From Caldithrix abyssi DSM 13497 (GTDB taxonomy: Bacteria; Electryoneota; AABM5-125-24; Hatepunaeales; Hatepunaeaceae), in contig CAMBDS010000001.1 of assembly GCA_945865405.1 (NCBI GenBank), positions 248,001 to 312,000 of the forward strand: a stretch of DNA of 64,000 bases, in the 5' to 3' direction. Below, in pieces: positions 31,179 to 46,540 of the stretch (the first letter of the stretch is position 1; each line of letters starts with the position of its first letter). The notes under the pieces were generated by a model. That model made no database searches. It saw nothing but the letters and a program-made list of their open reading frames with translations, and was not told the origin of the DNA. The position numbers were made by a program, and so were the translations under genes.

Positions 31179-33415
31179 CGAATCACCACTACTTTCTTGG
31201 AAATATGTTGGAACCCATTGGTAAGCTTCACCAAATAAACCCCGGCGGGTATTTCCCCTGCGTCCCAGACGACTTTGTGAGTACCAGCGGAAAGGCGAGA
31301 GTTGACAAGGTCGGTGACGAGACGGCCGGAGAGGTCGTAGATGCGTAAGGAGACCCCCCCTACCCCCCCTGCAATAGCATGGGGGGATAGCGAGAAGGTG
31401 ATGGTGGTGGTGGAGTTGAAGGGGTTGGGGGATACGTCCAGAAGAGTTGGGTCCTCTGGTGGGGTGGCAGGCTGGTCGTCAGGAGTCGGTGAAACGAAAT
31501 CAGCTTCGGAAAAGTCGTAAATCCCTATCGAGTAGTCCCCAACAATGTAAAGCAAATTTCCATCAGCCGTCACTGATCTTGCTCCACCGTCGATGCGCCC
31601 GGTATGGACAAGCTGCAGATTCATGATTCCTGAATACTTAAATGCAACAAGTGAGTAATTGTTTGATCCGTAGAGAAAATTATAATCAGAATCCAAACTG
31701 AACACAGAAATTGGCGTGAAAATGGAGCTGCGTCTGATGGGTCGTTCCGGATTGGTAATGTCATAGACCGAGAGAATATCTGCATTTCCATTGTCAGTCG
31801 CGTGCTCAATAATAACTCGATCTTCACGCGCGAAAATGCGATCAATATTGTCACATAGGAATGTTGAAAGAACCCGAGGCGCTTCATCGCTAGTAATATC
31901 CCAAATAGATACCGAATCGCTAATAAAAGTAACTAACTTAGAACCTGCTAAAGTCATAGATCTTTGACGTCTCCCTCCAAAACCCCCCGGTAAAACAACA
32001 CTTCCGGTCAGTTCCGGATTTTCAGGTTCCTGAATGTCAATAAAATAGACTGTTGTATTGGATGTAGCCATATAAAGATATTCACCTCTCAAATAGCAGC
32101 TTGTGAAATTTTCGTTCATAGCCAGACCAGCAATTCTTACCGGTTGAGCGGGCTCAATCAAATCGTAAATTTCCAGTCCGACCGAATTAACTGCGACGTA
32201 TAGATAAGCGTCTTTAAGAATGGAAATGTAGTTGAAACGTTCTATGTAAATGGTGTCGGAATAGTTGCCGACAATTTCTGGATTTTCAGGATCCTGGATA
32301 TCAACAACCCAGAACCCATGGGTATCATTGTGCCCGGCGGAGCCGAATATGCAGGCTAAATTTCGATCGATCACGATATTATCAAAACCGCCAATTGTTC
32401 CATAATCACCAAGATTGACGGGGGACTGAAAGTTTGAGATATTGACAAGCCGAAAGCCTTCATTCCTATTATTTAGTGCCGCATAATCTCCATTCAAGGT
32501 AATGTTTGATCCATAGTAAGTTGAATCACCCTGACCGATGAGGCTTGGGTTAAGAGGAGCAGAAAAATCGTAAATGAAGAGGTTATTCAATGCCAGACGA
32601 TCGGTGCATCTTGCCAATATAAATCCAGTATCATCACGAAAAACAATTCTATTGATCTCGTCAACAGGTGCCAAAAATCCAAGATCCTCCGGATTATTCA
32701 CATCTGTAAAATCTGTAACCAACAGCTGATTATTCCTGCAAACTGTATAGATGAGGTTATCTTTGATTGCACTACTTTGGAATTCTACATCAAATTCAGG
32801 GTCATAATGCGACAGGAAAATTGGTTCATCGTTATTGGAAATGTCGAAGAGGAAGAGTTCCTCTTCGCCGGTTATTACCGCCAAATTGCCTGATATACTA
32901 ATGCTTGTAGCGTTCCCGAACAATCGATAGTCAGTTAGGTGTATCAACGAATCGGGGTTTGAGGCGTCAATTGGCACCAAGCCTTGGATGGTGGCACAAA
33001 AAATCGTAGTCGGGTCGTCAGGTTTCATAGCAATATCGGTAATACTAAACTGATGACGGACATTGGATCGAGCTCTTATGACTGGAAATTCGGGGTGGCT
33101 TACGTCGATTGCCACCAAATCCTGATCTCGCTGAAGTGCATACAACATTGTACCCATGCCTACAATATTGTCCCAATTCTCCGAACCATCCAACACAGCA
33201 ACCTGCACCGGGTTATTCAGGTCACTGATATCAAGAACTCGCAACCCCGTCGCGCCTGTCGAAACGAAGGCGTGATCTCCCAGAAAAACTGCATCGTTTG
33301 CGGTGCTCCAGTAATCGAAAACCTGCCCAAGTTTGGTGAGGTCATACTCATTCTGTGCAAAGCAAACAACAGGTAGGAGCATGGCTGTGAGTAGAAATGA
33401 TTGAATAGTCTTCAT
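31175..33415 (-). CDS. LVIVD/beta-propeller-like secreted protein with T9SS sorting domain
   Basis: Repeats (VLDISDLNNPVQVAVLDG, VVDIQDPENPEIVGNYSD); SPNPFNSTTTITFSLSPHAIAGGVGGVSLRIYDLSGR C-terminus; 4-nt overlap with the next gene. Confidence 0.82.
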   Translation of the reverse strand: MKTIQSFLLTAMLLPVVCFAQNEYDLTKLGQVFDYWSTANDAVFLGDHAFVSTGATGLRVLDISDLNNPVQVAVLDGSENWDNIVGMGTMLYALQRDQDLVAIDVSHPEFPVIRARSNVRHQFSITDIAMKPDDPTTIFCATIQGLVPIDASNPDSLIHLTDYRLFGNATSISISGNLAVITGEEELFLFDISNNDEPIFLSHYDPEFDVEFQSSAIKDNLIYTVCRNNQLLVTDFTDVNNPEDLGFLAPVDEINRIVFRDDTGFILARCTDRLALNNLFIYDFSAPLNPSLIGQGDSTYYGSNITLNGDYAALNNRNEGFRLVNISNFQSPVNLGDYGTIGGFDNIVIDRNLACIFGSAGHNDTHGFWVVDIQDPENPEIVGNYSDTIYIERFNYISILKDAYLYVAVNSVGLEIYDLIEPAQPVRIAGLAMNENFTSCYLRGEYLYMATSNTTVYFIDIQEPENPELTGSVVLPGGFGGRRQRSMTLAGSKLVTFISDSVSIWDITSDEAPRVLSTFLCDNIDRIFAREDRVIIEHATDNGNADILSVYDITNPERPIRRSSIFTPISVFSLDSDYNFLYGSNNYSLVAFKYSGIMNLQLVHTGRIDGGARSVTADGNLLYIVGDYSIGIYDFSEADFVSPTPDDQPATPPEDPTLLDVSPNPFNSTTTITFSLSPHAIAGGVGGVSLRIYDLSGRLVTDLVNSRLSAGTHKVVWDAGEIPAGVYLVKLTNGFQHISKKVVVIR

Positions 33416-33418
33416 TGG

Positions 33419-36400
33419 TTACCTCAACAGAATTAATTTTTGTATTCGAGTCTGACCATTTGCCTCCAACCGCACGAGATACACCCCCGCCGACAAATCG
33501 CCAGCATCCCAGATGACTTTGTGGGTACCGGCGGAGACGCCGGTGCTACCGAGCAAATTGGTGACGAGGCGGCCGGTGAGGTCGTAGATGGCTAACCTAA
33601 CCCCCCCTTGTATTCCCCCCCTGCCAGCAGAGGGGGAAAGAGAGAAGGTGATGGTGGTCGTGGAGTTGAAGGGGTTGGGGAAGGGCGGGGCGAGATAGAG
33701 CATATCGGGAACGGAAGAAGAACTTTCATCCGTTGGAACCCCGGTCTCGAGGCCGGAAAGGGCGCTTTCAAGGAATGCTCGCGCGCCAGCTTCATCCATA
33801 AAGTAGAGTGGAAAACCGAGGATAATAGCAGCTCCTGAATCGAGCTCTGTTTTGACTCCGCAAGCCATTCCCTCGAATAACGGATCATCAGAGAGCGAAT
33901 TGAAGTCGAGCATTCGTTCGCCATGACTCAATTCAAATATCCAGCACTTGTCCAACCCATACCAATTGACCGGCACCTTGTCTCTGTCAAGTGAGAGGCT
34001 ATCGTAACCGTCTCTTCCCAAAGCGCCTTGGAAGTCTCGTTCCGTGACTCGCTTGCCACTTACGATCCCCAACATACCGGGAAGACTCTGAGCGGGGAAT
34101 TGTTGGCTGTCTGAATCTACCGTAGCGAAATTGGTCAGAACATCCCACCCTGAGATCACAACATTCCCGCCAAATTCAATAAATTTTTGCAAGTAAGTTC
34201 GATTATCTTTTAACCGCAAATCGGCTTTGTCGTCGCTGTGCCAGACGATAGTCCGGTATTTTCCGATTTCAACGGCGGTTAGAGTACGGTTGACATTTGC
34301 GCGGAATTGAAAGTAGTCGAGATCGTCATACTCTCTTGCGCCAAGTATCGCATGGTAGAAACTGTCAGCTTGTGCATCGTCTGGCGAACCGGGACGCCCG
34401 TTTCCGTCACGAGTCTCGTCCACGAGTAGAATGCGCGGGTCGTCCATGATAAAGGGGGCGCCTCTTACGATGTTATCGAGCGAATCAGCGCCGTAGGCAG
34501 GGCTTTCGTTACCATCTGCATCTTCAGCCGTCAAGCGATAAGTGTAGATCCCAAATTCATTGATTTGATCGAGGTAATGCAACTCATTGACAGGATCCTG
34601 ATTGACCGGAGTAAAGTCTCCTCCGTTCAGCGAGCGGTAAATGTTGTAACCGAGTAGGTCAAGCTCGCGAGGTCTGTTTGGAATCCAACTTAAGCTGATC
34701 GCGTGGTAGAGTTCCTCCTCTAACTTCAATTCGACAGGTTTTCTCGGGATGGAGAGCGGGATTGCCCATGTTGTGTCGGAGAGAAGGCTCTCGTTGCCGT
34801 CGATGTCGTTAAGGCTGATTGCAAAATAGTAAGAGGTGCCCTCAACAAGGTCTCCTATTATCCGTTCAACGTCTTCGCCAACGTTTACTATTTCGTGCAG
34901 GTCACCCGAATCGCCGTAGTATAAATTTATGCTTTCGATTTGCGGCATCCGCCCATATTGTTGCCAGGTGACGGACAATGCTTCACCACTACCTACATCA
35001 GCGACATTGGGTTTTGCCGGTATCGGGATATACTCGCCGCGAAAAACTTGTTCACGTCCGACATCGTAGAATTCTTGAACGGCATCTGCAGTGGTAACGA
35101 TGCCTTCCGTGTCTTCGGCGGCTATCAAAGCATAGGTGATATCCATCGATTCGCCGGGGAAAAGAGCCCACATTTCATTGCCGGTAGGACCGAAAGAGAT
35201 GATGTAACGCCAATCATCACGTTCGCCGGTGGGGGGGCTATTTTCTTCGTCATCTGCGGAGATCAAATCGTATTTGTCAGCGTTGGTTTCAGGATCGCCG
35301 CCTCTGGTGCGGCTAAAATTCTTGAAACCGATGTTCAGTTCGTCAAGAGGTTTGGGGGTTTTCAAAATCTTTATTGCAAAAACGCCCGGTGCCCACTCAC
35401 CTTCATCGGTTGAGTCGTCTCCTTGAACCGCCATAAGATGGTCGGCATCGAAATAGTTCCAATCGTCCAACGAACCTTGGTCGCCGCCTTCGCCTTGAGC
35501 GGCAATATCGGGATCGGCAAAGAGTGCAAAACGAAGCCCCCAGAGAGTATCTTCGCCGACGTTCCTGATTTTTGTTTCAAAAATCACAGCATCGCTGATG
35601 GGACTGGCAAAGTTCCAACTGTAGGATGTTTCTTCTATCCTGATGTTAAGCGGGGTGTGACCGTCATTGTCTGGTGAGTTGACTTGTCGGCGGTCAATGT
35701 CGTCATAGATCGCGGTTATCTGTCCGTCGGCCATAGCGGCACCATCTTCATCGAAAAGGTCGTCGCCGTCATCGTCGCGGCTCCCGGTAATTTGGTCGCC
35801 GTCGAAGTCTTGATCGTCCGCATCAACAAGACCGTCGTTGTCGTTGTCAAGCATATCGCTGCTGATGTCGCCGGGTGGGTCTTCGTCAATGTGGGGTTCC
35901 GGATCGTAGAAGAATATGCCGTCACCGTTGATATCGTTATCTGGCCCGTCCCAGTCCATCGAGGGGGCACCATTCCCATCGAGGTCGTCGTTTTCGGAGT
36001 TCCAATCGTCGTCGTCATCGAAGGCGATCAGGCTGAACCGATAAGGATCGTCGGGGTGAACATTAGATTGGCAGATGAATCCGTCTGCGGAGGGAGAAAA
36101 TTCGTTTGTGCCGTTATCGCCGTCGCAGCCTGTTGAGACAAACTTGCGGCCGTCAACGATTGCCCCGACCCAAATCCCGGCTGAGAAGAGGAATTCTGAT
36201 TGAGAGCCTTTGGGATACTCCATCCCGTAGTAGCCTTCGTGCAGATCAGGGTTGCCGTACTCTCCCCAGTTGGAGATTGTCAAGGCGACATTGTTACCGT
36301 CTTGCTTGATTATCTGACGTTGTCCTCCGGGGTCTCGAACGGGGCCTCGCTGTTGGGGCGAGGAATAGCGAGCTATGGCGGAATTGGCGAGCAGAATGAA

Positions 36401-36442
36401 CAGGCATCCGGTTATGAGGCGAAGGATTGAGCTTAGTTTCAT
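33419..36442 (-). CDS. Large secreted protein with FN3-like domains, Asp-rich linker and T9SS sorting domain
   Basis: Signal peptide; DIDGNESLLSD/DADGNESPAYG FN3-type ends; NDNDGLVDADDQDFDGD Asp-rich region; T9SS C-terminus. Confidence 0.8.
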   Translation of the reverse strand: MKLSSILRLITGCLFILLANSAIARYSSPQQRGPVRDPGGQRQIIKQDGNNVALTISNWGEYGNPDLHEGYYGMEYPKGSQSEFLFSAGIWVGAIVDGRKFVSTGCDGDNGTNEFSPSADGFICQSNVHPDDPYRFSLIAFDDDDDWNSENDDLDGNGAPSMDWDGPDNDINGDGIFFYDPEPHIDEDPPGDISSDMLDNDNDGLVDADDQDFDGDQITGSRDDDGDDLFDEDGAAMADGQITAIYDDIDRRQVNSPDNDGHTPLNIRIEETSYSWNFASPISDAVIFETKIRNVGEDTLWGLRFALFADPDIAAQGEGGDQGSLDDWNYFDADHLMAVQGDDSTDEGEWAPGVFAIKILKTPKPLDELNIGFKNFSRTRGGDPETNADKYDLISADDEENSPPTGERDDWRYIISFGPTGNEMWALFPGESMDITYALIAAEDTEGIVTTADAVQEFYDVGREQVFRGEYIPIPAKPNVADVGSGEALSVTWQQYGRMPQIESINLYYGDSGDLHEIVNVGEDVERIIGDLVEGTSYYFAISLNDIDGNESLLSDTTWAIPLSIPRKPVELKLEEELYHAISLSWIPNRPRELDLLGYNIYRSLNGGDFTPVNQDPVNELHYLDQINEFGIYTYRLTAEDADGNESPAYGADSLDNIVRGAPFIMDDPRILLVDETRDGNGRPGSPDDAQADSFYHAILGAREYDDLDYFQFRANVNRTLTAVEIGKYRTIVWHSDDKADLRLKDNRTYLQKFIEFGGNVVISGWDVLTNFATVDSDSQQFPAQSLPGMLGIVSGKRVTERDFQGALGRDGYDSLSLDRDKVPVNWYGLDKCWIFELSHGERMLDFNSLSDDPLFEGMACGVKTELDSGAAIILGFPLYFMDEAGARAFLESALSGLETGVPTDESSSSVPDMLYLAPPFPNPFNSTTTITFSLSPSAGRGGIQGGVRLAIYDLTGRLVTNLLGSTGVSAGTHKVIWDAGDLSAGVYLVRLEANGQTRIQKLILLR

Positions 36443-36445
36443 TAC

Positions 36446-37453
36446 TTATCTCATTAATACGAGTTTTTGTGTTCGAGTCTGGCTACCTGCCTCCAACCTC
36501 ACCAAATAAACTCCCGCCGGAACATCCCTTGCATCCCAGACAACTTTGTGGTTACCGGCGGAGACGCCGGTGCTACCGAGAAGGTCGGTGACGAGGCGGC
36601 CTGAGAGGTCGTAGATGGCTAACCTAACCCCTCCTTGTATTCCCCCCCTGCCAGCAGAGGGGGAAAGAGAGAACGAGATCGTGGTCGAAGAGTTGAAGGG
36701 GTTGGGGAAGGGGGGCGAAAGGCTGAAGGATGAAGGATTAAGGATGAAGTCGGAGACACCCAGAGGAGGCAAAAGCGTGAAGGTCTCAATGCTACGGACA
36801 GAGTCGGGGCCGGCGTAAGCCCAAGCCCACCATCGGATCGCGTCACCAAACCGCCAAAGAATTGCGGAGGGAATATCTTCAGTGGTATCTGTGAATGACG
36901 CGAATTCAATGGTATCGTGATCTACACGCTCTATGAAGAGGATGTAATCGACGCGATCGAGATCGACGTTACCTGCCTGAGTCCAGTTGAAGGTGATAAA
37001 ATCAGTATCAGGGGCATTTGCGCTGTCGAAAGGTAAAACCAAATGAAAAGGGAGCAGCGTGTCCGGCGAAGGATAGACTGTAACCATGAAAGTGTCATAG
37101 GCTGCGAACTCAGCGTCTTCTGCCTTGACGATGACAGGCAAAGGTCTAACTGTAAAGAAATTATGTTCAAGTCTTCTGGATAACATACTCGTCTGCTGGT
37201 TAATTCTAAAATTTAGCCCTCGTGGCGGGTCTATGAGACTGAATTCGAGAGTATCTCCATCGGGATCGGTAAACTTAGTATTCAAACGAGCTACCAGGAG
37301 TTCGTTCAAGTTCGAATCTTCCAATAAGCGCATATCCAGGATTGGCGGGGGGACGAGCTCCGGAGGGTGATTCTGCCCGAAAGTAAGCCCCGCCCAAAGG
37401 CAAACCACCAGCCCGACACCAGCCCAAAATAGTCCTCGCATCTTCCGCTCCAA
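36446..37453 (-). CDS. Cadherin/Ig-like secreted protein with T9SS sorting domain; first gene of the minus-strand run
   Basis: NTKFTDPDGDTLEFSLIDPPRGL; PNPFNSSTTISFSLSPSAGRGGIQGGVRLAIYDLSGRLVTDLLGSTGVSAGNHKVVWDARDVPAGVYLVRLEAGSQTRTQKLVLMR. Confidence 0.8.
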   Translation of the reverse strand: MERKMRGLFWAGVGLVVCLWAGLTFGQNHPPELVPPPILDMRLLEDSNLNELLVARLNTKFTDPDGDTLEFSLIDPPRGLNFRINQQTSMLSRRLEHNFFTVRPLPVIVKAEDAEFAAYDTFMVTVYPSPDTLLPFHLVLPFDSANAPDTDFITFNWTQAGNVDLDRVDYILFIERVDHDTIEFASFTDTTEDIPSAILWRFGDAIRWWAWAYAGPDSVRSIETFTLLPPLGVSDFILNPSSFSLSPPFPNPFNSSTTISFSLSPSAGRGGIQGGVRLAIYDLSGRLVTDLLGSTGVSAGNHKVVWDARDVPAGVYLVRLEAGSQTRTQKLVLMR

Positions 37454-37731: not shown

Positions 37732-37980
37732 ATGGAAAACAGCCAAATTTCACGATCCGACCTTACCAAAGGCAACGTGATCGACCTCGACATGATCGCC
37801 GAAGAAGCGGACAGGTTGCGAGGCGTTCGCGGAACGACCGAACTGAAGGGAAACAAGTCGCTTAGGGAGTGGCTGAAGCCGGTCGGGAAGGTGGTGAAGC
37901 CTTCGTTCGGCGGGAAAATCGAAGCGATGAAGCAGAAGCTCTTTGACGATGGACAGGGAAGATTTCGATGTGGTAGATAG
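37732..37980 (+). CDS. Small hypothetical protein, first gene of the phage-like cluster
   Basis: MENSQISRSDLTKGNVIDLDMIAEEADRLRGVRGTTELKG...; start chosen downstream of the promoter. Confidence 0.6.
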   Translation: MENSQISRSDLTKGNVIDLDMIAEEADRLRGVRGTTELKGNKSLREWLKPVGKVVKPSFGGKIEAMKQKLFDDGQGRFRCGR

Positions 37981-37992
37981 ATGACAAAGGAA

Positions 37993-38186
37993 AAAGTACG
38001 AAGTAGGAAGTAGGAAGTACGAAGTTGCTGCCGACCGCGGCGGGTCGGCAGTGGACGCAAGATTTCTTTCGGGGCAGGAGGATAGACAAGCTGAAAATAA
38101 CAAAAGGCTTTGACGCCTCCTGCTTTGGAAGGATGAGGGATGAAGTAAGAAGTACGAAGTACGAAGTAAGAAGTACGAAGTAAACA
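37993..38186. repeat. Two heptanucleotide tandem-repeat blocks
   Basis: AAAGTAC GAAGTAG GAAGTAG GAAGTAC GAAGTTG (37993-38027) and GGATGAG GGATGAA GTAAGAA GTACGAA GTACGAA GTAAGAA GTACGAA (38131-38186). Confidence 0.8.
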
Positions 38187-38199
38187 ATAAGGAAAAACA

Positions 38200-38640
38200 G
38201 TGGCAAGTCAATTTCAGATCGATAACAACGGCATCGGCGGGACGCCGTTCCTGACCTTCACGGTCGATACGTCCGCCAACAAGGACTTTTCGCAGACAGA
38301 CCTCGACAGCAACCTCTCCGCCTGTGTCATCAGCGACAACAACGAAGTCGGGATGGGCTCGGCTGGCGACAAGCTGTTCGGCAAGGTCGTCTGGGTCAGC
38401 CAGGAAGTGCAATCGGGGACGACTATCCCGGCACTCTGCGCCGTGCAGGCTCGCGGAGTAGCTCGGTTCAAGTACGCCGCAACCACTCCCGTCATCAACC
38501 AGATGGTCGAGGCAGATGGAGCCGGCAAAGTCCGCCAGGCTGCCGCTGACGCTGACATCGCCGCCGGAGGCCATCTGATGCGCGGGCAGGTGATCGCGGT
38601 CGATACAAGCGCCGGGACGTGTGATGTGTGGTTGGGGTAA
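38200..38640 (+). CDS. Capsid decoration-like (DUF2190-like) protein
   Basis: VMKIDN-like small beta-rich protein: GDKLFGKVVWVSQEVQSGTTIPALCAVQARGVARFKYAATTPVINQMVEADGAGKV...; directly upstream of the capsid gene. Confidence 0.55.
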   Translation: MASQFQIDNNGIGGTPFLTFTVDTSANKDFSQTDLDSNLSACVISDNNEVGMGSAGDKLFGKVVWVSQEVQSGTTIPALCAVQARGVARFKYAATTPVINQMVEADGAGKVRQAAADADIAAGGHLMRGQVIAVDTSAGTCDVWLG

Positions 38641-38753
38641 TAATCTAACCACGAAGACACGAAGGAACGAAGTACACCCCCCCTTAATCCCCCCCGCAAG
38701 CGGTGGGGAAACGGTGGATTACAGTTGATAGTGGAAATGTTGAGGAAAAACAA

Positions 38754-39818
38754 ATGCAAACAAATTTCGATAACGCAAGAAAAATCAAAGAACTGATCGT
38801 GCAACACTCACGGTCAGGAAATCTGGCACTGTACGCAGAGGCTCAGGAACAAGGACTCTCTTTCACCGAACTACTGGAACAGCTCGACCCGACTGAACAG
38901 GGAGCAAACCTCGACGCATTCGAGAGGCAGTTGATGCTGAACGGAGTGCTTGCCGAAGGACCGCGGTCGATTTCGCTCGAGCAATTCTTCGTCGGCGGCG
39001 GGTTGATCCTTATGCCGGAGTATATCCTGCGCGAGATCAAGCGGGGCTACAAGATGGTGCAGGACCCGCTCGAGCTGATCGCGTCGCAAGCTCAGGAGAA
39101 CGGCCCCACAGTGCGACCGATCTACATCAAGACCAACCTCGCCAAGGAACCGCTTGGCAGGAGAGGGTCGAATGGCGGGGCGTCTTATCCGCGAGTGGAG
39201 CTGCTTCACCGCGAGAAGGAGGCGGTCATTATCGACCGGGGCAGGCAATTCGACTTCGGTTACCGGGTCGTCAGGAACCAGAAGCTCGCCGAGTTCCGGG
39301 TGTTCCTCTGGTGGATCGGAGCGCAGATGGCTTATGACGAGATCGACGAGATCTATGGCCTCCTTCTGAACGGTGACGGGACTTCTTCGGGGGTGACCGA
39401 CGTCTTCAACGGGGTTGGCGGTACGTTCGCCTACAGCGACCTCGTCCATCTCTCGATGTCGTTTGACGTTCCGGCGAGGATGACGCACATCGTCGCGGCG
39501 AAGTCAGACGTCGAGAAGATCGTCAATCTGACGCAGTTCCAGGACCCGCTGGTCTGGCGCGAGTCGGAGTCGTTTCAGCGCGCGGGGGACTATCGGTCGT
39601 TCCACCCGATCAACGCCAAGCTGGTGATTGCCCCCAATGCGACAGCGACGAGGATCATCGGGCTTGACAGTCGGTTTGCGGTGCGGGAGTCTGTCGCTCA
39701 GCCGTTGATGATCGAAGCCGAAAAGGTGATTAACCAGAAGCTTGAGACGGCGGTTGTGTCGAAGGAGTCGGTCTATACCGTGATGGTCGATGGGGCGGCG
39801 CTGTTGTCGGATTACTAA
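38754..39818 (+). CDS. Major capsid protein (HK97-fold candidate)
   Basis: 355 aa; FGYRVVRNQKLAEFRVFLWWIGAQMAYDEIDEIYGLLLNGDG and VREKSVAQPL-like C-terminal segment (AVRESVAQPLMIEAEKVINQKLETAVV); position next to the decoration gene. Confidence 0.7.
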   Translation: MQTNFDNARKIKELIVQHSRSGNLALYAEAQEQGLSFTELLEQLDPTEQGANLDAFERQLMLNGVLAEGPRSISLEQFFVGGGLILMPEYILREIKRGYKMVQDPLELIASQAQENGPTVRPIYIKTNLAKEPLGRRGSNGGASYPRVELLHREKEAVIIDRGRQFDFGYRVVRNQKLAEFRVFLWWIGAQMAYDEIDEIYGLLLNGDGTSSGVTDVFNGVGGTFAYSDLVHLSMSFDVPARMTHIVAAKSDVEKIVNLTQFQDPLVWRESESFQRAGDYRSFHPINAKLVIAPNATATRIIGLDSRFAVRESVAQPLMIEAEKVINQKLETAVVSKESVYTVMVDGAALLSDY

Positions 39819-39969
39819 GAGGGGGCTGGTGGGCTGGTGACTGGGGACTGGTGATTAGAGTCTCTTTCGGGCAGGGGGATAGACAGACCGAAAATAATAA
39901 AAGGTCTTGAGTTCCCCCTGTTCGAAGGGATGAGGGATAAGGGATAAGGGATAAGGATGATACGGAAGG

Positions 39970-40073
39970 GCAAAAAATGAGCGGGACGACCGAAATCGTC
40001 CCGCTCAAAGACCGCCGATTGTTACATCGGCAGTAATTCGACTCCCGAGCGAGTGCTCATTGAGTGTACTCAC
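39970..40073 (-). ncRNA. Structured small RNA candidate copy 1, with promoter and terminator
   Basis: Minus strand TTGACA(40108-40103)-N17-TATATT(40085-40080); RNA contains CTCGGGAGTCGAATT-ACTGCCGAT-GTAACA-ATCGGCGGT-CTTT; ends GAGCGGGACGA-TTTCGG-TCGTCCCGCTC-ATTTTTT. Confidence 0.65.
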
Positions 40074-40124
40074 ACAAACAATATAACGTATTGAACGCAT
40101 GTTGTCAAGTACCGATGAAAATTG

Positions 40125-40230
40125 TGGCGGAGGGCGGGGGAATCGAACCCCGCTCAAAGACCGCCGATGACTGATGAGAGTATCGGCAGTAAATCGACTC
40201 CCGAGTGGGGTCGCTTTCAGACTAGCTCAC
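40125..40230 (-). ncRNA. Structured small RNA candidate copy 2, with promoter and tRNA-3'-like tail
   Basis: Minus strand TTGACA(40265-40260)-N17-TATATT(40242-40237); CTCGGGAGTCGATTT-ACTGCCGAT-[13 nt]-ATCGGCGGT-CTTTGAGCGGGGTTCGATTCCCCCGCCCTCCGCCA. Confidence 0.6.
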
Positions 40231-40278
40231 ACTGACAATATAAACGATAAAATTCGACTTGTCAAGTTTGACTCAAGT

Positions 40279-40372
40279 GGTGTCACACGTCTCGTGTGAC
40301 ACCATAAGAATACACCCCCCCTTGCTCCCCCCCGCAAGCGGTGGGGAAAAGGGCGGACAAGAGTGTCCGCCC
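40279..40372. repeat. Palindromic repeat cluster
   Basis: GGTGTCACACG-TCT-CGTGTGACACC (40279-40303); CACCCCCCCTTGCTCCCCCCCGCAAGCGGTGGGG (40312-40346); GGGCGGACA-AGAG-TGTCCGCCC (40351-40372). Confidence 0.85.
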
Positions 40373-40416
40373 TCCAGGATACTTGATGATAATTAATCTT
40401 CAAACCAGGTAGATAA

Positions 40417-40779
40417 ATGATAAATAATACACTTAACAACCTGTTAGCAAGGCGTTTTCCGCTCTTACTCAACTTCTCCAGAGCCGTCACAACAAGCTCG
40501 GTGGAGTTGAAATGTGCCGGCGGTGAGGCTGGCCAAGGGGTGCCGATCCCGATGGACGGGAAGGCGGTCGGGTTGCAGGTCTGGGACGGGCTGGCGATGC
40601 ACTCGACGTCGCTGGAGGTGGACCTCGCGGCGGGTGACCGGGTGAACCTCTATGCAGCTTATGGAGGAGCAACGTTCACCGTGACGTTGCGGGTCAACGG
40701 CGTCGATTCGGTGCTTGTTGTTTCAGGAGTAGCCGCAAACGCGACGTTGACAGCTTCACTTCACATTATTTTGGAGTAA
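40417..40779 (+). CDS. Small hypothetical phage-cluster protein
   Basis: 120 aa beta-rich ORF; directly precedes the connector-like gene. Confidence 0.55.
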   Translation: MINNTLNNLLARRFPLLLNFSRAVTTSSVELKCAGGEAGQGVPIPMDGKAVGLQVWDGLAMHSTSLEVDLAAGDRVNLYAAYGGATFTVTLRVNGVDSVLVVSGVAANATLTASLHIILE

Positions 40780-40782
40780 CCG

Positions 40783-41628
40783 ATGGCATGGACAGATAGC
40801 GATACAGTGAAGAAATTTCTGCCGGGGTTGACTGGCGGAGCGACAAGCTTCCGCGATGTCCCGTTGATCCTCAGCGACACAGGGGTCGGGCAATTGCCAC
40901 ATACGGGACTGGTTTTGGCGAGTGAGGTTGTCAAAAGGCTTGGGAACGATGATGTCGAGGGACCCGAAGCGGTCACGCTTCCGTCGGAGACGTGGGTTGC
41001 TCTCCCCGACTCGGCGCTGTTGGCGGGAGAAGTGGTTGCCGCTGATAACTGGCAACTGGAAACGGTTTACAGCGAAGGAGTCGACTATCTGATCGACACC
41101 ATCGAGGGGAAAATCAGGCGCATAGCCGGAGGAGCTATCAGCGGCGGTGCGACGGTGAAGGTCTGGTACCGAAAGTACGAGGTGCTGGCGAAAGATGTCG
41201 ATTACGAAATTGACTACGCAACCGGCACAATCTCGCTTGCGGAAGAGAGCGAAATACCTCCCGGAGCTACTCTCGCAGTCGATTACGAGCTGAACGCTGC
41301 GTCGTCGGTGGAAGACCTTATTCCAGAGGCGATTATCCAGGCTGAAGACAAGATAGTCAGGCGGTTGAAATCTGGCTACACAACAGCCTCAACCGATCAG
41401 GGTCTGGTGACAGGCGCGACCGAGCTGACGCTGGCGATCATCTGCCGAAGCCTTGCTGTCAGGGCGTTGGGGGATGGGTTGCCTGCCGCGCAGAGTCGCG
41501 GGAAGAGCTGGCTGGAGCTGTCGTCGCTGTTCGACCGGTCGGCATCGAAGACGCTGAAGCCGTTTATGTCGGTTCCGGCACTTGCGAGTGGGGGTGTGCA
41601 GGGGAATGGGAGTTGGGAGTGGAATTAG
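40783..41628 (+). CDS. Putative head-tail connector/adaptor-like protein
   Basis: MAWTDSDTVKKFLPGLTGG... with EDLIPEAIIQAEDKIVRRLKSGY...; location between capsid and terminase genes. Confidence 0.45.
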   Translation: MAWTDSDTVKKFLPGLTGGATSFRDVPLILSDTGVGQLPHTGLVLASEVVKRLGNDDVEGPEAVTLPSETWVALPDSALLAGEVVAADNWQLETVYSEGVDYLIDTIEGKIRRIAGGAISGGATVKVWYRKYEVLAKDVDYEIDYATGTISLAEESEIPPGATLAVDYELNAASSVEDLIPEAIIQAEDKIVRRLKSGYTTASTDQGLVTGATELTLAIICRSLAVRALGDGLPAAQSRGKSWLELSSLFDRSASKTLKPFMSVPALASGGVQGNGSWEWN

Positions 41629-41685
41629 GAAAGGATAAAGGATAAAAGATAAAGGATGAGGGATGAATGGAAAGTGAATTAGAGA

Positions 41686-43098
41686 ATGAGTGAAGAAGCG
41701 AACAATAGTGACTTTTCAAGATCAACGTGGAAAGGCTTGTTAATTGACGAGGCAGAAGTGGAGATAGAGTTTCCTACGGTATCGCTTGCGCCTGCTGATT
41801 GGATTTTCGCGAATGTCTGGACACTCGATGCTGTCGGTGGTGTGAAGCCGTTCCCCGACTATCCGTTTGTCAGAAGCCTTATAGATGCATTGTCGGAAAA
41901 CCGGTTGTTGATCGTCGCCAAGTCGCGGCAAATGCTGGCCACGTGGACGGTGGCGGCATACTACCTCTATCGAGCCCTCCACGACGAGCCGGGAATCTAC
42001 CTCTTCCTCTCGAAAGGTGCAAGAGACTCGAAGGAAATGTTGAAGCGGTTGAAGATCATGGTGAAAAATCTACCTGAAGACTTGAGCGACCAGATCAAAA
42101 TCAAGGAGGAAGAGGCAGTTTTCACCAACGGGAGCCGGATCCTAAGCCTTCCGGCGACCGAGTTTGCACCGCGTATGCACAGCCCGGCGGGGGTATTCTG
42201 GGATGAGATGGCGTTCACTCCCGACGCTGAGGGGATCTGGGCGTCGCTGAAACCGGCGATAGACTCAGGAGGGACGTTCGCAGGGATCTCATCGCCGAAC
42301 GGAAAGGACAACATTTTCTATGAACTCTACTCCGATGAAAATAATGGGATTGGCAAATTCCGCCTTCATTGGCAGGATCATCCGTTGCGCGATGAATCCT
42401 GGCGCGTCAAAGCGGCGAAAGGTCTATCGCAGACGCGCTGGCAACAGGAGTACGAGGTCGATTTCAAGGTTATGGTCAATCGAGTTTACGACGAGTTTGA
42501 TCCTGAACTTCACATCCTTACCGAACCGTTCGATCCGAAACAGGTGGCGGGGGTTATCTATCGCGGGCTTGACTTTGGCTACCGTCACCCGTATGTCGTC
42601 TGGGTACATCAGGCTTTCAATGGCGAGCTGACCGTCTTTGCCGAATTCGAAGGTGAAGATAAGACGATCCAACAACTTGGCGCGGCGATTCAGCGGATAG
42701 ACGCGGCGCGTGGCTTCGGCGAGTCGATGGTGAGGTTCACGGCTTGCGATCCGGCCGGCGCCGCGACTAGCGATAAGGGTATTTCGTCGGTGGAAAGCCT
42801 GAAGGAGCTGGGCATCAAGTGCGTCCATCGTAACAGCAGGATCATGGATGGCGTCGATAAGGTGAAGTCACTTCTGCGAGACGCCAACGGGAAGGTTTCT
42901 CTAAGGTTTTCGCCGACAGTCACGCAGACGATTTACCATCTACAACATTACCGCTGGGTGAAAGATACAGAAACGCCAGGTAAAATTGACGGTCACGACC
43001 ATGCATGTGATGCGCTGAGGTATCTAATCGTCAACCTTCAAGTGCGCCACAAGGTGGGTTGGTCAGGAGGGAAGGTGGTGGGGGTTTCGGAGGGATGA
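41686..43098 (+). CDS. Phage terminase large subunit
   Basis: LLIVAKSRQMLATWTVAAYYLYRAL (Walker A-like), PAGVFWDEMAF (Walker B), nuclease motifs GLDFGYRHPYVVW, ACDPAGAATSDKG, GHDHACDALRYLI. Confidence 0.9.
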   Translation: MSEEANNSDFSRSTWKGLLIDEAEVEIEFPTVSLAPADWIFANVWTLDAVGGVKPFPDYPFVRSLIDALSENRLLIVAKSRQMLATWTVAAYYLYRALHDEPGIYLFLSKGARDSKEMLKRLKIMVKNLPEDLSDQIKIKEEEAVFTNGSRILSLPATEFAPRMHSPAGVFWDEMAFTPDAEGIWASLKPAIDSGGTFAGISSPNGKDNIFYELYSDENNGIGKFRLHWQDHPLRDESWRVKAAKGLSQTRWQQEYEVDFKVMVNRVYDEFDPELHILTEPFDPKQVAGVIYRGLDFGYRHPYVVWVHQAFNGELTVFAEFEGEDKTIQQLGAAIQRIDAARGFGESMVRFTACDPAGAATSDKGISSVESLKELGIKCVHRNSRIMDGVDKVKSLLRDANGKVSLRFSPTVTQTIYHLQHYRWVKDTETPGKIDGHDHACDALRYLIVNLQVRHKVGWSGGKVVGVSEG

Positions 43099-43115
43099 AG
43101 GATGAAGTTGGTGGT

Positions 43116-43344
43116 GGGGCGGACTGAAGTCCGCCCCCCAAGTGGGTTTAGTGAGGTTCAAGCCATGTTTCAAGGACGAAGTCCGTAACATGGCTTGGAA
43201 TATGGCCGCCAGGTTACGAGCTACACTCTTGAAACCTGGCGGGAACACAAGGGCGAACACGAGGTTCGCCCGTACGGGCGATGCTTGTCATCGCCCTCCA
43301 AGAGATGAAATTAGTTTTGCTGGCAGACGAGGGCGTCTGCCAGC
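43116..43344. repeat. Palindromic repeat cluster including 87-bp double-hairpin copy 1 (43157-43243)
   Basis: Hairpins at 43116-43137, 43157-43243 (two nested hairpins), 43251-43271, 43276-43296, 43319-43344. Confidence 0.9.
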
Positions 43345-43366
43345 GGAATAAACAACAGGATAATCA

Positions 43367-44674
43367 ATGTTTTTCTGGAAACGAAAAAAAGCGCAAGTTG
43401 CCAATATCGAAACAAGCGGCAGGGTGCGAGGCGCGAAAAACCTGGGTTTAAGTGCAAGCTCGTCGGGTATAAACCGTCGCAGTCTGCGCCGGACGTGGGA
43501 GCCAAGAGGGCTGGGTAGGGTTGTCGCCGGGCCATTGTCGGGAGTTCAATCGACCTTTGCCTTCAATGGCAGCAACCGCGGCGAGTTCTATCGCTGGATG
43601 AGGGACTCGATTCCGATAATCTCGGCGGGAGTCTGGGCGTGGGTCAGGCTCTGCTCGACGCGAACGACGCTGAAAATCGAGGGAAGTGCTGCAGATCGCT
43701 TGCGCGCCGGGTTGGCGCTGAGTGCACTCGATCACCGCATCCTTGAGACGCCTTTTGGCAAGGGATCGGGGTTGCAGAAGCTGACCGAGGCATACTTCCT
43801 GGAACTATTCACTACAGGCCGCTTTGCGGGCGAAGCAGTCCTCTCGGCGGACAAGCGCTCCATCGACCACTTCCGCTTCATCAACCCGTATAGCGTCGGT
43901 TGGGAGCACCGCGAGGAGGGCTGGGTTCCGTTCGCCAATACGGAAAGCGATGGCACCGAAACCGTCGAGCGATTTGATCCGAAGACGTTCTTCTACGGCA
44001 CGCTCGGCACCGACATCACCAATCCGGGCGGCATCGAGCCGCTGGCGACGATCCCGTTCGTCTCGGAGATCGAGCAGATGATGCTGGAAGATATGGCTCG
44101 CTCGTCTCACAACGCCGGGACGCCGCGCCTGCAAGTGAAGATTGGCAGGCCGCCCAAATTCGACTTCGAGGACGATCAGGGCTACGTTGACCGGGCAAAC
44201 TCGTTCTTCGACAGCGTCACCAGCCAATTCCAGAACCTTGAACCGGACGACAACATCTTCACCTGGAGCGACGTTGAAGTAGCGGTTGTCGGTGGATCGG
44301 GCAAGCAGTGGGAGTGGCGGCTGAACCGCGATCAGGTGGTCGAGGACGTCATCACCGGGCTGAAGCTCTTCCCGTGGGTGCTGGGCAGGACCCATAAGAC
44401 GACGCAGAACTGGGTGCAGTCGCAGTTTGACTTCCTGATGCAGATGGTTGGGACTTATCAACACTCAGGTGCCGACTTGATCGACTGGCTCTGCAATCTT
44501 GAGATGGAACTGCAAGGAGTCGATGCTGTGGCGGGGCATAGCTTCAGCCACCACCCCGATCCGTTCCGCCTTGAAAGAGCCCAGGCGGAGAAGACCGAGA
44601 TCGAGAACGTGATGCTGTTGGTGGAGAAGGGGTATATCTCGAAGGAAGAGGGGATGATGAGGATGGGGCTCTGA
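43367..44674 (+). CDS. Phage portal protein
   Basis: 435 aa directly after terminase; MRDSIPIISAGVWAWVRLCSTR...; FSHHPDPFRLERAQAEKTEIENVMLLVEKGYISKEEGMMRMGL portal-like C-terminus. Confidence 0.7.
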   Translation: MFFWKRKKAQVANIETSGRVRGAKNLGLSASSSGINRRSLRRTWEPRGLGRVVAGPLSGVQSTFAFNGSNRGEFYRWMRDSIPIISAGVWAWVRLCSTRTTLKIEGSAADRLRAGLALSALDHRILETPFGKGSGLQKLTEAYFLELFTTGRFAGEAVLSADKRSIDHFRFINPYSVGWEHREEGWVPFANTESDGTETVERFDPKTFFYGTLGTDITNPGGIEPLATIPFVSEIEQMMLEDMARSSHNAGTPRLQVKIGRPPKFDFEDDQGYVDRANSFFDSVTSQFQNLEPDDNIFTWSDVEVAVVGGSGKQWEWRLNRDQVVEDVITGLKLFPWVLGRTHKTTQNWVQSQFDFLMQMVGTYQHSGADLIDWLCNLEMELQGVDAVAGHSFSHHPDPFRLERAQAEKTEIENVMLLVEKGYISKEEGMMRMGL

Positions 44675-44675
44675 A

Positions 44676-44867
44676 GGGATGAGGGATGAGGGATGAGGGA
44701 TGATGAGACAGGCAGAGACCGCCAGAGTTGGTTCAAGCCATGTTTTAAGGACGAAGTCCGTAACATGGCTTGGTAAAAGGCCGCCAGGTTACGAGCTACG
44801 CTCTTAAAACCTGGCGGGAACACGTGACTGTTGATAGTTATGCAGGCAGACGGGGGCGTCTGCCTGC
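44676..44867. repeat. Heptamer block plus palindromes including double-hairpin copy 2 (44732-44818)
   Basis: GGGATGA x4 (44676-44703); double hairpin with TTTTAAGG...CTCTTAAAACC; GCAGGCAGACG-GGGG-CGTCTGCCTGC (44842-44867). Confidence 0.88.
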
Positions 44868-44916
44868 GGAAATGACAGATGGGGACCATCTGTCCTACGA
44901 ATATAAAAGGAAAAAC

Positions 44917-45618
44917 ATGGAATGGATATTTCGTGAATTGGCGGGGGTGATGCTATCTGAGGGATCAAAAGTCCATGACGACGACATCATCGCCATCAAT
45001 AGATTGCACAACCCGCCGCCGCTTCCGGTCGCGGCGACTGACATCTACGTCAGGCGCTGTCGGCTTGCTGGTGACGCGGTCGATGCCGGGTGGGGGAAGT
45101 TCCGCACCAGCGACCTGCCTAAGCTGCTGGAAATGGTGCAGGGGGCTCCGTCGCTGATAGGCCACCGCAAAGAGACGCTCGGCGTGGCGAGGTTCTTCGG
45201 AGGGACAGTCTCCCGCGAACCTGCAACCGGCGTCAGCTACATCGTGCCGAAGTTTTACTGGATGCGGGGTCACTCGGCGGCGGAAGACTTGAAAGTCAAT
45301 ATAGACGGTGGTATCTGGTCGGAGGCGTCGCTGGGGTTCATCTTCAAGAAGCCGTCCTGCTCGATCTGCAATGAAGACATCAGGCGCTGTGACCACGTTC
45401 CGGGGCAGGCTTATGGCGAGCAGACGTGCTTCTTCCACTACGACGACCTCGTTCGCGTGACGGAAGGGTCGTTCGTTTATCGCGGTGCTCAGCCTGGGAC
45501 AGGCTTTGCGCTCGGTGATCCGGGCGGGTTTGGCGGATTCAACCAGGACCTTCCGCGCTTCAAGTGGAAGGGGGTGCTCTACCGGGGTTATCCGGAGAAG
45601 TTGATGGGGGAGGGATGA
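44917..45618 (+). CDS. Putative capsid maturation protease/scaffold-like protein
   Basis: MEWIFRELAGVMLSEGSKVHDDDI...; GAPSLIGHRKETLGVARFFGGTVSR...DGGIWSEASLGFIFKKPSCSICNEDIRRCDHVPGQ; assigned mainly by synteny next to portal. Confidence 0.45.
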   Translation: MEWIFRELAGVMLSEGSKVHDDDIIAINRLHNPPPLPVAATDIYVRRCRLAGDAVDAGWGKFRTSDLPKLLEMVQGAPSLIGHRKETLGVARFFGGTVSREPATGVSYIVPKFYWMRGHSAAEDLKVNIDGGIWSEASLGFIFKKPSCSICNEDIRRCDHVPGQAYGEQTCFFHYDDLVRVTEGSFVYRGAQPGTGFALGDPGGFGGFNQDLPRFKWKGVLYRGYPEKLMGEG

Positions 45619-45629
45619 AGGAAAACGTG

Positions 45630-45936
45630 CTGTCACACGTCACGTGTGACAGTGTATTGGTTCAAGCAATGTTTCAAGGACGAAGTCCGTAACATGGCTT
45701 GGGATATGGCCGCCAGGTTACGAGCTACGCTCTTGAAACCTGGCGGGAGCTCAAAGCAGACACCCCCCCTTAATCCCCCCCGCAAGCGGTGGGGAATATG
45801 CGCGGGCTGAAATCCCGCGCTCAAAGAGATTGCAAGATCAGGGCGAACACAAGGTTCGCCCGTACGGGCGATGCTTGCCATCGCCCTAAAAGGAAGAGAT
45901 TAATCGTTTTGCTGGCAGACGAGGGCGTCTGCCAGC
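45630..45936. repeat. Palindromic repeat cluster including double-hairpin copy 3 (45661-45747)
   Basis: CTGTCACACG-TCA-CGTGTGACAG (45630-45652); 45661-45747; C-rich hairpin (45760-45794); CGCGGG-CTGAAAT-CCCGCG (45801-45819); 45841-45861; 45866-45886; 45911-45936. Confidence 0.9.
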
Positions 45937-45979
45937 AGAATCGTTGTAAGAAAAACTTAAAATCAAGAAAGGTAACATC

Positions 45980-46540
45980 ATGAAGATATCTTTAATCGCT
46001 CTCGTTCTGACCGAGCTTTTGTGTGGTTTTGCCAATGCTCAGCCCGGCGTGCCGCCAGCGGGGGACTCATACTCGTTGCTTTCGGGCGAACATACGCCGG
46101 TCATTTACACAGGTTCCGGTGAAGCCTCCAGCTCGGCAGGCTACACGACGCAATGGCTGCAGATTGGCTATTCCCCGTCTGCAACGACCAAGAATAACAA
46201 CAACATCGGTCGCTTCAACCCGGAGCAGTTCACCCTTGGGATGACGCTGACGCTCGGCAGTGGTGCTGATAGCTCGATGGTCTCAACGGCACGATTCGAG
46301 CTAGCATACGATACGACAGTCGCCGCCTTCTGGGTAGGTGATTCGAGCAACACGTTTATCGGGCCAACCAGCTCCTCCCGCCTCGATTACGGTGTCTGGA
46401 CTTTCAACAAGGTTTTGGATACAGCTCACGGGAGGCTCTACCCGCTTAGAGTGTTGCAAGGCGGGTATATCCGGTTTGTCTTTGAGACGACGACATCGGA
46501 CGAGGTCGTGATCGACTGGACGCTGACGGGGGAACATTGA
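45980..46540 (+). CDS. Secreted hypothetical protein in phage-like cluster
   Basis: Signal peptide MKISLIALVLTELLCGFANA. Confidence 0.6.
   Translation: MKISLIALVLTELLCGFANAQPGVPPAGDSYSLLSGEHTPVIYTGSGEASSSAGYTTQWLQIGYSPSATTKNNNNIGRFNPEQFTLGMTLTLGSGADSSMVSTARFELAYDTTVAAFWVGDSSNTFIGPTSSSRLDYGVWTFNKVLDTAHGRLYPLRVLQGGYIRFVFETTTSDEVVIDWTLTGEH

Follow-up and report, generated by a model that had tools for sequence, protein, structure and literature searches.

A predicted tRNA-derived small RNA and its terminator-ended tandem partner beside the capsid gene of a gene-transfer-agent-like locus in Electryoneota

Short RNAs that act on one another by base-pairing are known from antisense pairs under RNAI/RNAII-type control and from small RNA (sRNA) sponges, including sponges derived from transfer RNA (tRNA) transcripts such as the 3' external transcribed spacer (3'ETS) of leuZ; their genes generally lie on opposite strands or within spacers that are processed. 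There are also pseudo-tRNAs with roles outside translation, for example tRNA-Other of Bacillus cereus (PMC3399842). Here we describe two tandem small-RNA genes predicted in a 64-kb stretch (the window) of genome G000, which we compared with 38 other genomes of the phylum Electryoneota (39 in all). By its placement, G000 falls among relatives in Candidatus Electryoneota / LCP-89. Both lie on the minus strand: unit A is the upstream copy (copy 2 of a preliminary description of this DNA) and unit B the downstream copy (copy 1). Taken together, they have the look of a regulatory RNA pair not described before. In the reading that we prefer, to which we assign a probability of about 0.45, unit A is a tRNA-derived RNA and unit B a terminator-ended partner that would regulate A by base-pairing.

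Two structured units in the capsid gap

The pair sits between the major capsid protein gene and a conserved gene for a 120-aa protein (Table 1). It is intergenic, lies on the strand opposite to the structural operon and is convergent with the capsid gene. As the preliminary description had it, each unit is preceded by TTGACA-N17-TATATT, and the two promoter blocks are 157 nt apart, start to start (the core recurs after 156 nt and the 20-nt block after 149). This exact pattern occurs at 3 sites in the window and at none in 100 shuffles, and an identical promoter precedes two tRNA-Met genes of the same genome. Real tRNA genes of the genome thus use this promoter type, and both units are likely to be transcribed from such housekeeping promoters. 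The common core blocks, CTCGGGAGTCGA (12 nt), TTACTGCCGAT (11 nt) and ATCGGCGGTCTTTGAGCGGG (20 nt), are identical in the two units and follow in the order first described. The ACTGCCGAT/ATCGGCGGT stem is likewise kept at 9 bp, including one G-U pair, while its loop differs: It has 6 nt in unit B and 13 nt in unit A, where it closes further by a 3-bp ACU/AGU stem. Stems that are identical between copies are in themselves uninformative on covariation; what a kept stem with a changed loop reveals is non-random divergence or gene conversion rather than compensatory evolution. The variable presented loops suggested in the preliminary description are at most a candidate feature, drawn from this one duplicated pair.

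Judged from its sequence, unit A is tRNA-derived: Its descent from a tRNA gene is indicated by the matches of its T-arm and acceptor strand and by the whole-length match of its homolog in genome G007 to the tRNA-Sec model. The 3' end of the unit reads GCGGGGTTCGATTCCCCCGCCCTCCGCCA, that is, a T-arm, an acceptor 3' strand and CCA, with no terminator. This stretch is the sole recurrent match to the locus across 98 other genomes, and the loci that it matches are mostly the 3' ends of tRNA-Ser, tRNA-Sec and transfer-messenger RNA (tmRNA) genes. In the minimum free energy fold from GGAG (40201-40198), an acceptor-like GGAG/CUCC stem is flush with the T-arm and the shared hairpin is enclosed as one long arm; for the full-length transcript a competing fold is predicted, and the fold z score against shuffles is -2.6 to -3.1. 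A tRNA or tmRNA gene at this place was considered and rejected: ARAGORN makes no call in the window, the likeness to tmRNA covers 15 nt of T-arm only, and a tmRNA gene is present elsewhere in the genome.

Unit B has a promoter and a Rho-independent terminator of its own, and its fold reaches z = -6.5 to -7.0 against shuffles. The terminator ascribed to this copy is present, but its stem has 13 bp, longer than the 11 bp first given. Covariance model R1, which represents unit B, scores 112 bits in the window and 120 bits in G007; through the common core it also picks up window unit A at 39.6 bits. Folds, promoters and position thus bear out the description of structured small RNAs. Within the units we found short open reading frames (ORFs) only, with no sign of conservation, and a T-box leader was rejected for unit B, since no gene lies downstream on its strand. 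Two further hairpins, GGGCGGACACTCTTGTCCGCCCTTTT and GGTGTCACACGAGACGTGTGACACC, stand upstream of unit A in the same gap, at about 40345-40376 and 40275-40306 on the minus strand; the first is terminator-like.

Table 1. Features of the RNA pair and its neighborhood, in window coordinates
Feature	Position	Strand	Basis or remark
Unit A promoter, TTGACA-N17-TATATT	40237-40265	-	consensus match 11/12
Unit A, predicted tRNA-derived small RNA	40125-40231	-	predicted start near 40231; tRNA-like 3' CCA at 40127-40125
Unit A core hairpin, ACTGCCGAT - 13-nt loop - ATCGGCGGT	40160-40190	-	sequence and fold
Unit A tRNA 3' half: T-arm GCGGGG-TTCGATTC-CCCCGC, acceptor strand CTCC, G73, CCA	40125-40153	-	tRNA 3'-end matches
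Unit B promoter, TTGACA-N17-TATATT	40080-40108	-	promoter scan and exact pattern
Unit B, predicted structured small RNA: hairpin 1, GGAGUCGA, hairpin 2, intrinsic terminator	39972-40076	-	fold and covariance model R1
Unit B core hairpin, ACTGCCGAT - GTAACA - ATCGGCGGT	40011-40034	-	sequence and fold
Unit B intrinsic terminator, 13-bp stem and T6	39972-40007	-	stem and TTTTTT at 40007-39978
Major capsid protein gene	38703-39818	+	PHROG 3922, E 4e-41
Conserved 120-aa cluster gene, far side of the RNA pair	40417-40779	+	homologs (37-53% identity) at this position in 10 other clusters
Virion structural protein gene	38200-38640	+	PHROG 4588
Capsid 3' hairpin R2, two-tier stem with internal loop AUAnAC/UGAnU	39869-39923	+	R2 covariance model, 56.9 bits
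Second R2 copy, upstream of the virion structural protein gene	38072-38125	+	34.1 bits, E 6e-5 in whole genome

A counterpart in another genus and the relation between A and B

A second instance of the pair is found in G007, a genome of the same family and a different genus, separated from the window genome by an amino-acid tree distance of about 0.76. Its locus (L008) has both units, with order, orientation and place beside the capsid gene unchanged; the capsid proteins of the two genomes share only 75% identity, and blastn gives no alignment for the remainder of the gap. Unit A of G007 (1583-1502, minus strand) matches the whole tRNA-Sec model with 38.2 bits (E 3.8e-6), against a gathering score of 47, and genuine tRNA-Ser genes reach 40-46 bits with the same model. 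Its predicted fold is a class-II cloverleaf with acceptor, D-arm, anticodon-like arm, variable arm and T-arm; the anticodon loop has 9 nt or is mismatched, and position 8 is a G (no U8). In its tRNA 3' half, window unit A is identical to G007 unit A over 18 + 8 nt, and across the T-arm and acceptor strand 26 of 29 nt agree. The idea of a novel RNA pair therefore holds as far as two structured RNA genes with a syntenic homolog are concerned, but the tRNA origin of the upstream copy had been missed.

Covariation among homologs, which had been put forward as a check, is seen in the downstream unit. Unit B of the window and unit B of G007 have 17 common pairs, all kept and 4 of them compensatory (26 of 500 shuffles reach that), and slid structures in the same alignment keep 29-68% of cells paired. 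The changes fall in two helices: Five pairs of the core hairpin align with G007 hairpin 2, two of them compensatory, and the terminator stem, aligned with the 12-bp terminator of G007, has two compensatory pairs as well.

Two kinds of relation between A and B can be read from these loci. One is complementarity: In G007, GTATCAGGCTGC of unit B is the exact complement, over 12 nt, of GCAGCCTGATAC in the anticodon arm of unit A (0/500 shuffles). The match extends to a 15-nt inverted repeat at 93%, and the cofold binding energy is -8.5 kcal/mol against a shuffled mean of -2.9, with 10 of 200 shuffles as low. The other is likeness in the same sense. Both G007 units carry AACGGGGCGG, before the T-arm in A and the terminator in B, and the terminator of B aligns with the T-arm of A (23 nt, 74%, spacing 169). 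The same-sense segments common to A and B in both genomes fit an origin as tandem paralogs, and in the window the 5' half of unit A may have been overwritten by the unit B core, as if by gene conversion.

From these observations, we propose that a tandem pair of autonomous small-RNA genes was placed in the gap of a gene-transfer-agent-like cluster. Unit A would be a class II serine/Sec-type pseudo-tRNA, with a complete cloverleaf-like fold in G007, of which the window copy keeps an acceptor-like stem, a single long arm, the T-arm and an encoded CCA; unit B would be its sister, with an intrinsic terminator in the position of the T-arm. The two probably interact: B would base-pair with A, in G007 with its 5' end invading the anticodon arm of A, and this pairing may control the level or folding of A. 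Unit A would act outside translation, either by engaging tRNA-binding proteins or by serving as an RNA target of B. That the units are expressed, that A is processed, that A and B pair inside cells and that the cluster is affected are all predictions from sequence. More ambitiously, the pair could be a dedicated two-RNA switch, made of a tRNA mimic and its own antisense RNA, that was captured by a phylum-wide gene-transfer-agent-like locus and regulates particle production, or host translation during it; we consider this a long shot.

Several observations weigh against regulation of A by B. The longest complement between A and B in the window is 8 nt, matched by 74 of 500 shuffles, and their binding energy is reached by 122 of 200. 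Since complementarity in the window is thus no better than in shuffles, trans pairing is not conserved: As far as the sequences tell, it is supported in G007 and not in the window genome. The promoters in G007 are weaker, with TTGAAT-N17-TACATT before unit A and TTGACA-N17-TAACTT before unit B (8 and 9 of 12), and neither is called by the promoter scan. The tRNA features of window unit A are partial, the 3' half being kept. Finally, the known homologous loci are two only.

This last point concerns distribution. With the R1 model and DNA searches, convincing matches were obtained in 2 of the 39 genomes, the window genome and G007, and none in the other seven genomes of the family. The phage and plasmid collections searched returned tRNA genes (3' ends) or very short or chance matches only, and the suggestion of a general phage-associated RNA family is accordingly not supported; the expectation that the RNAs belong to no known Rfam family holds, with 0 matches at gathering score in the window and unconvincing ones below it. 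A weak R1 match in another genome (G017, 24 bits) was judged to be chance, since it shows no visible promoter-terminator plan and is not on a capsid contig. A repeat or mobile element was rejected on the single copy per genome and the absence of flanking repeats. The concatenated cluster proteins make G000 and G007 sisters (UFBoot, ultrafast bootstrap, 92), and the capsid-only tree puts G005, which is without the pair, next to G007; therefore, the pair either arose once in the ancestor of G000 and G007 or was lost in G005. The same two genomes stand apart in another respect: SelB is over cut-off in 7 of the 9 family genomes and absent from exactly G000 (about 90% complete) and G007, which alone of the nine also have no tRNA-Sec above cut-off. 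Selenocysteine use was apparently lost on this branch. Unit A as a substitute for the lost tRNA-Sec, an idea made attractive by this joint absence of tRNA-Sec, was rejected, since SelB is lost in the same two genomes; we treat both absences as a shared lineage trait.

How else might such a pair be explained? A and B could be independent of each other: Both would use the common core to bind one and the same protein or mRNA, as trans-acting small RNAs or as tRNA decoys, and their likeness would come from tandem duplication and gene conversion. The window cores agree with this, being direct repeats (12 + 11 + 20 nt) with A:B pairing not above chance, as does the AACGGGGCGG segment shared by the G007 units, but the perfect 12-nt complement in G007 would then be unexpected; we regard independence as unlikely, although it deserves serious attention. 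The pair could also be a decaying relic: A tRNA gene would have entered the gap before the two lineages split, been duplicated and become a pseudogene without function in both. In favor of decay, unit A falls short of a tRNA in both genomes, the pair is confined to two of the nine family genomes, and the missing SelB and tRNA-Sec imply that genes of the translation system were lost in this branch. A relic would not be expected, however, to keep promoter spacing, T-arm, terminator and helices over a tree distance of about 0.76, with stems that change compensatorily and, in the window, promoters that are perfect or nearly so, and we hold it to be improbable.

Two other explanations concern the gap and unit A itself. 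Being transcribed against the structural operon, the units might dampen capsid-distal genes in cis, by antisense pairing or polymerase collision. This would suit the position of both units, which lie in an operon gap on the opposite strand and point toward the capsid gene, and the terminator of unit B, which in both genomes is placed ahead of that gene. Yet the units overlap no coding sequence of either genome, relatives without the pair carry the same downstream genes, and a conserved hairpin follows the capsid stop codon, so that an mRNA across the gap is only presumed; cis-antisense control seems to us quite improbable. Unit A might, lastly, be a working but highly diverged tRNA for serine or selenocysteine, with its G73, its T-loop TTCGATT, the long variable arm in G007 and the encoded CCA in the window copy. 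But no tRNA is called by ARAGORN at L008 either, the window copy is missing from a search of its whole genome with the tRNA model RF00005 down to 14 bits, and its loop contains no usable serine anticodon; in G007 the score below gathering, the enlarged or mismatched anticodon loop and the missing U8 speak against it, as does the absence of SelB from both genomes. A working tRNA is hardly to be expected here. Regulation of A by B remains the reading that we prefer.

The capsid cluster and its 3' hairpin

The cluster (38200-46540, plus strand) runs from the virion protein through the capsid protein, the 120-aa protein and the tail to the terminase and portal. A capsid homolog is present in 35 of the 39 genomes, in one copy each except for one gene split over two contigs; the capsid tree recovers each of the five families that have at least two members as monophyletic (f1 with weak support), and the gene order of the cluster is kept in contigs long enough to show it. 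On these grounds the phage-like cluster of the preliminary description is by sequence a vertically inherited gene-transfer-agent-like core locus and not a prophage insertion. A long minus-strand ORF at 37750-38652 is the shadow of the real plus-strand virion protein gene. Next to the cluster, the minus strand encodes a series of large secreted proteins (28434-37453) that end in C-terminal sorting domains (Por_Secre_tail, type IX secretion); LVIVD repeats occur in one of them.

Separate from the RNA pair and adjoining it, hairpin R2, with its conserved internal loop, follows immediately 3' of the capsid gene and is read from the same strand as that gene. Its pairs show compensatory changes in 9 of 13 across 7 genomes (0/500 shuffles), and it is found 3' of the capsid gene in 8 of 8 capsid-bearing genomes of the family. 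The eighth is G002, a genome outside the training set, where the R2 model recovered the hairpin (47 bits) 3' of a capsid fragment. With a second copy further upstream, R2 brackets the virion protein and capsid genes in the window genome. By these comparisons R2 is better conserved than the RNA pair and is the stronger general result, and it would give a direct handle on control of the capsid mRNA.

Comparison with described RNAs

If the units are expressed, a tRNA-derived RNA and its tandem partner would here be evolving through duplication within a domesticated phage locus. The pair would then illustrate how regulatory RNA pairs can come from tRNA genes, with a T-arm becoming a terminator and an anticodon arm an antisense target. 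It also marks a place in an uncultured phylum at which to seek control of gene-transfer-agent-like clusters by RNA. Among Rfam families, the best sub-threshold match to unit B is the Xanthomonadaceae sRNA Xoo2 (RF02241; 20.3 bits, E 0.15), which likewise has hairpins followed by a GC-rich terminator; unit B stays far below its gathering score of 45, however, and the resemblance is confined to the terminator hairpin. For unit A the closest relatives are tRNA-Sec (RF01852) and tRNA-Ser: The G007 copy aligns over the whole tRNA-Sec model, with acceptor, D-arm with UGGU, long variable arm, T-arm and G73, but it differs in its low score, its altered anticodon loop, its missing U8 and the lack of SelB in the genome, and the window copy keeps the 3' half only. 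With antisense pairs and sRNA sponges the two units have in common that they are short structured RNAs with complementary stretches and possible loop-to-tail pairing, but here both are encoded in tandem on the same strand, and the complementarity is found in one of the two genomes. Like tRNA-Other (PMC3399842), unit A would be a tRNA-like RNA gene in a mobile or island context, without features needed for translation and with a possible regulatory role; the present pair differs in having a dedicated tandem partner and a separate promoter for each unit. To our knowledge, the combination of a pseudo-tRNA and a terminator-ended sister, in tandem within a domesticated capsid locus, is a new variant among such RNAs.
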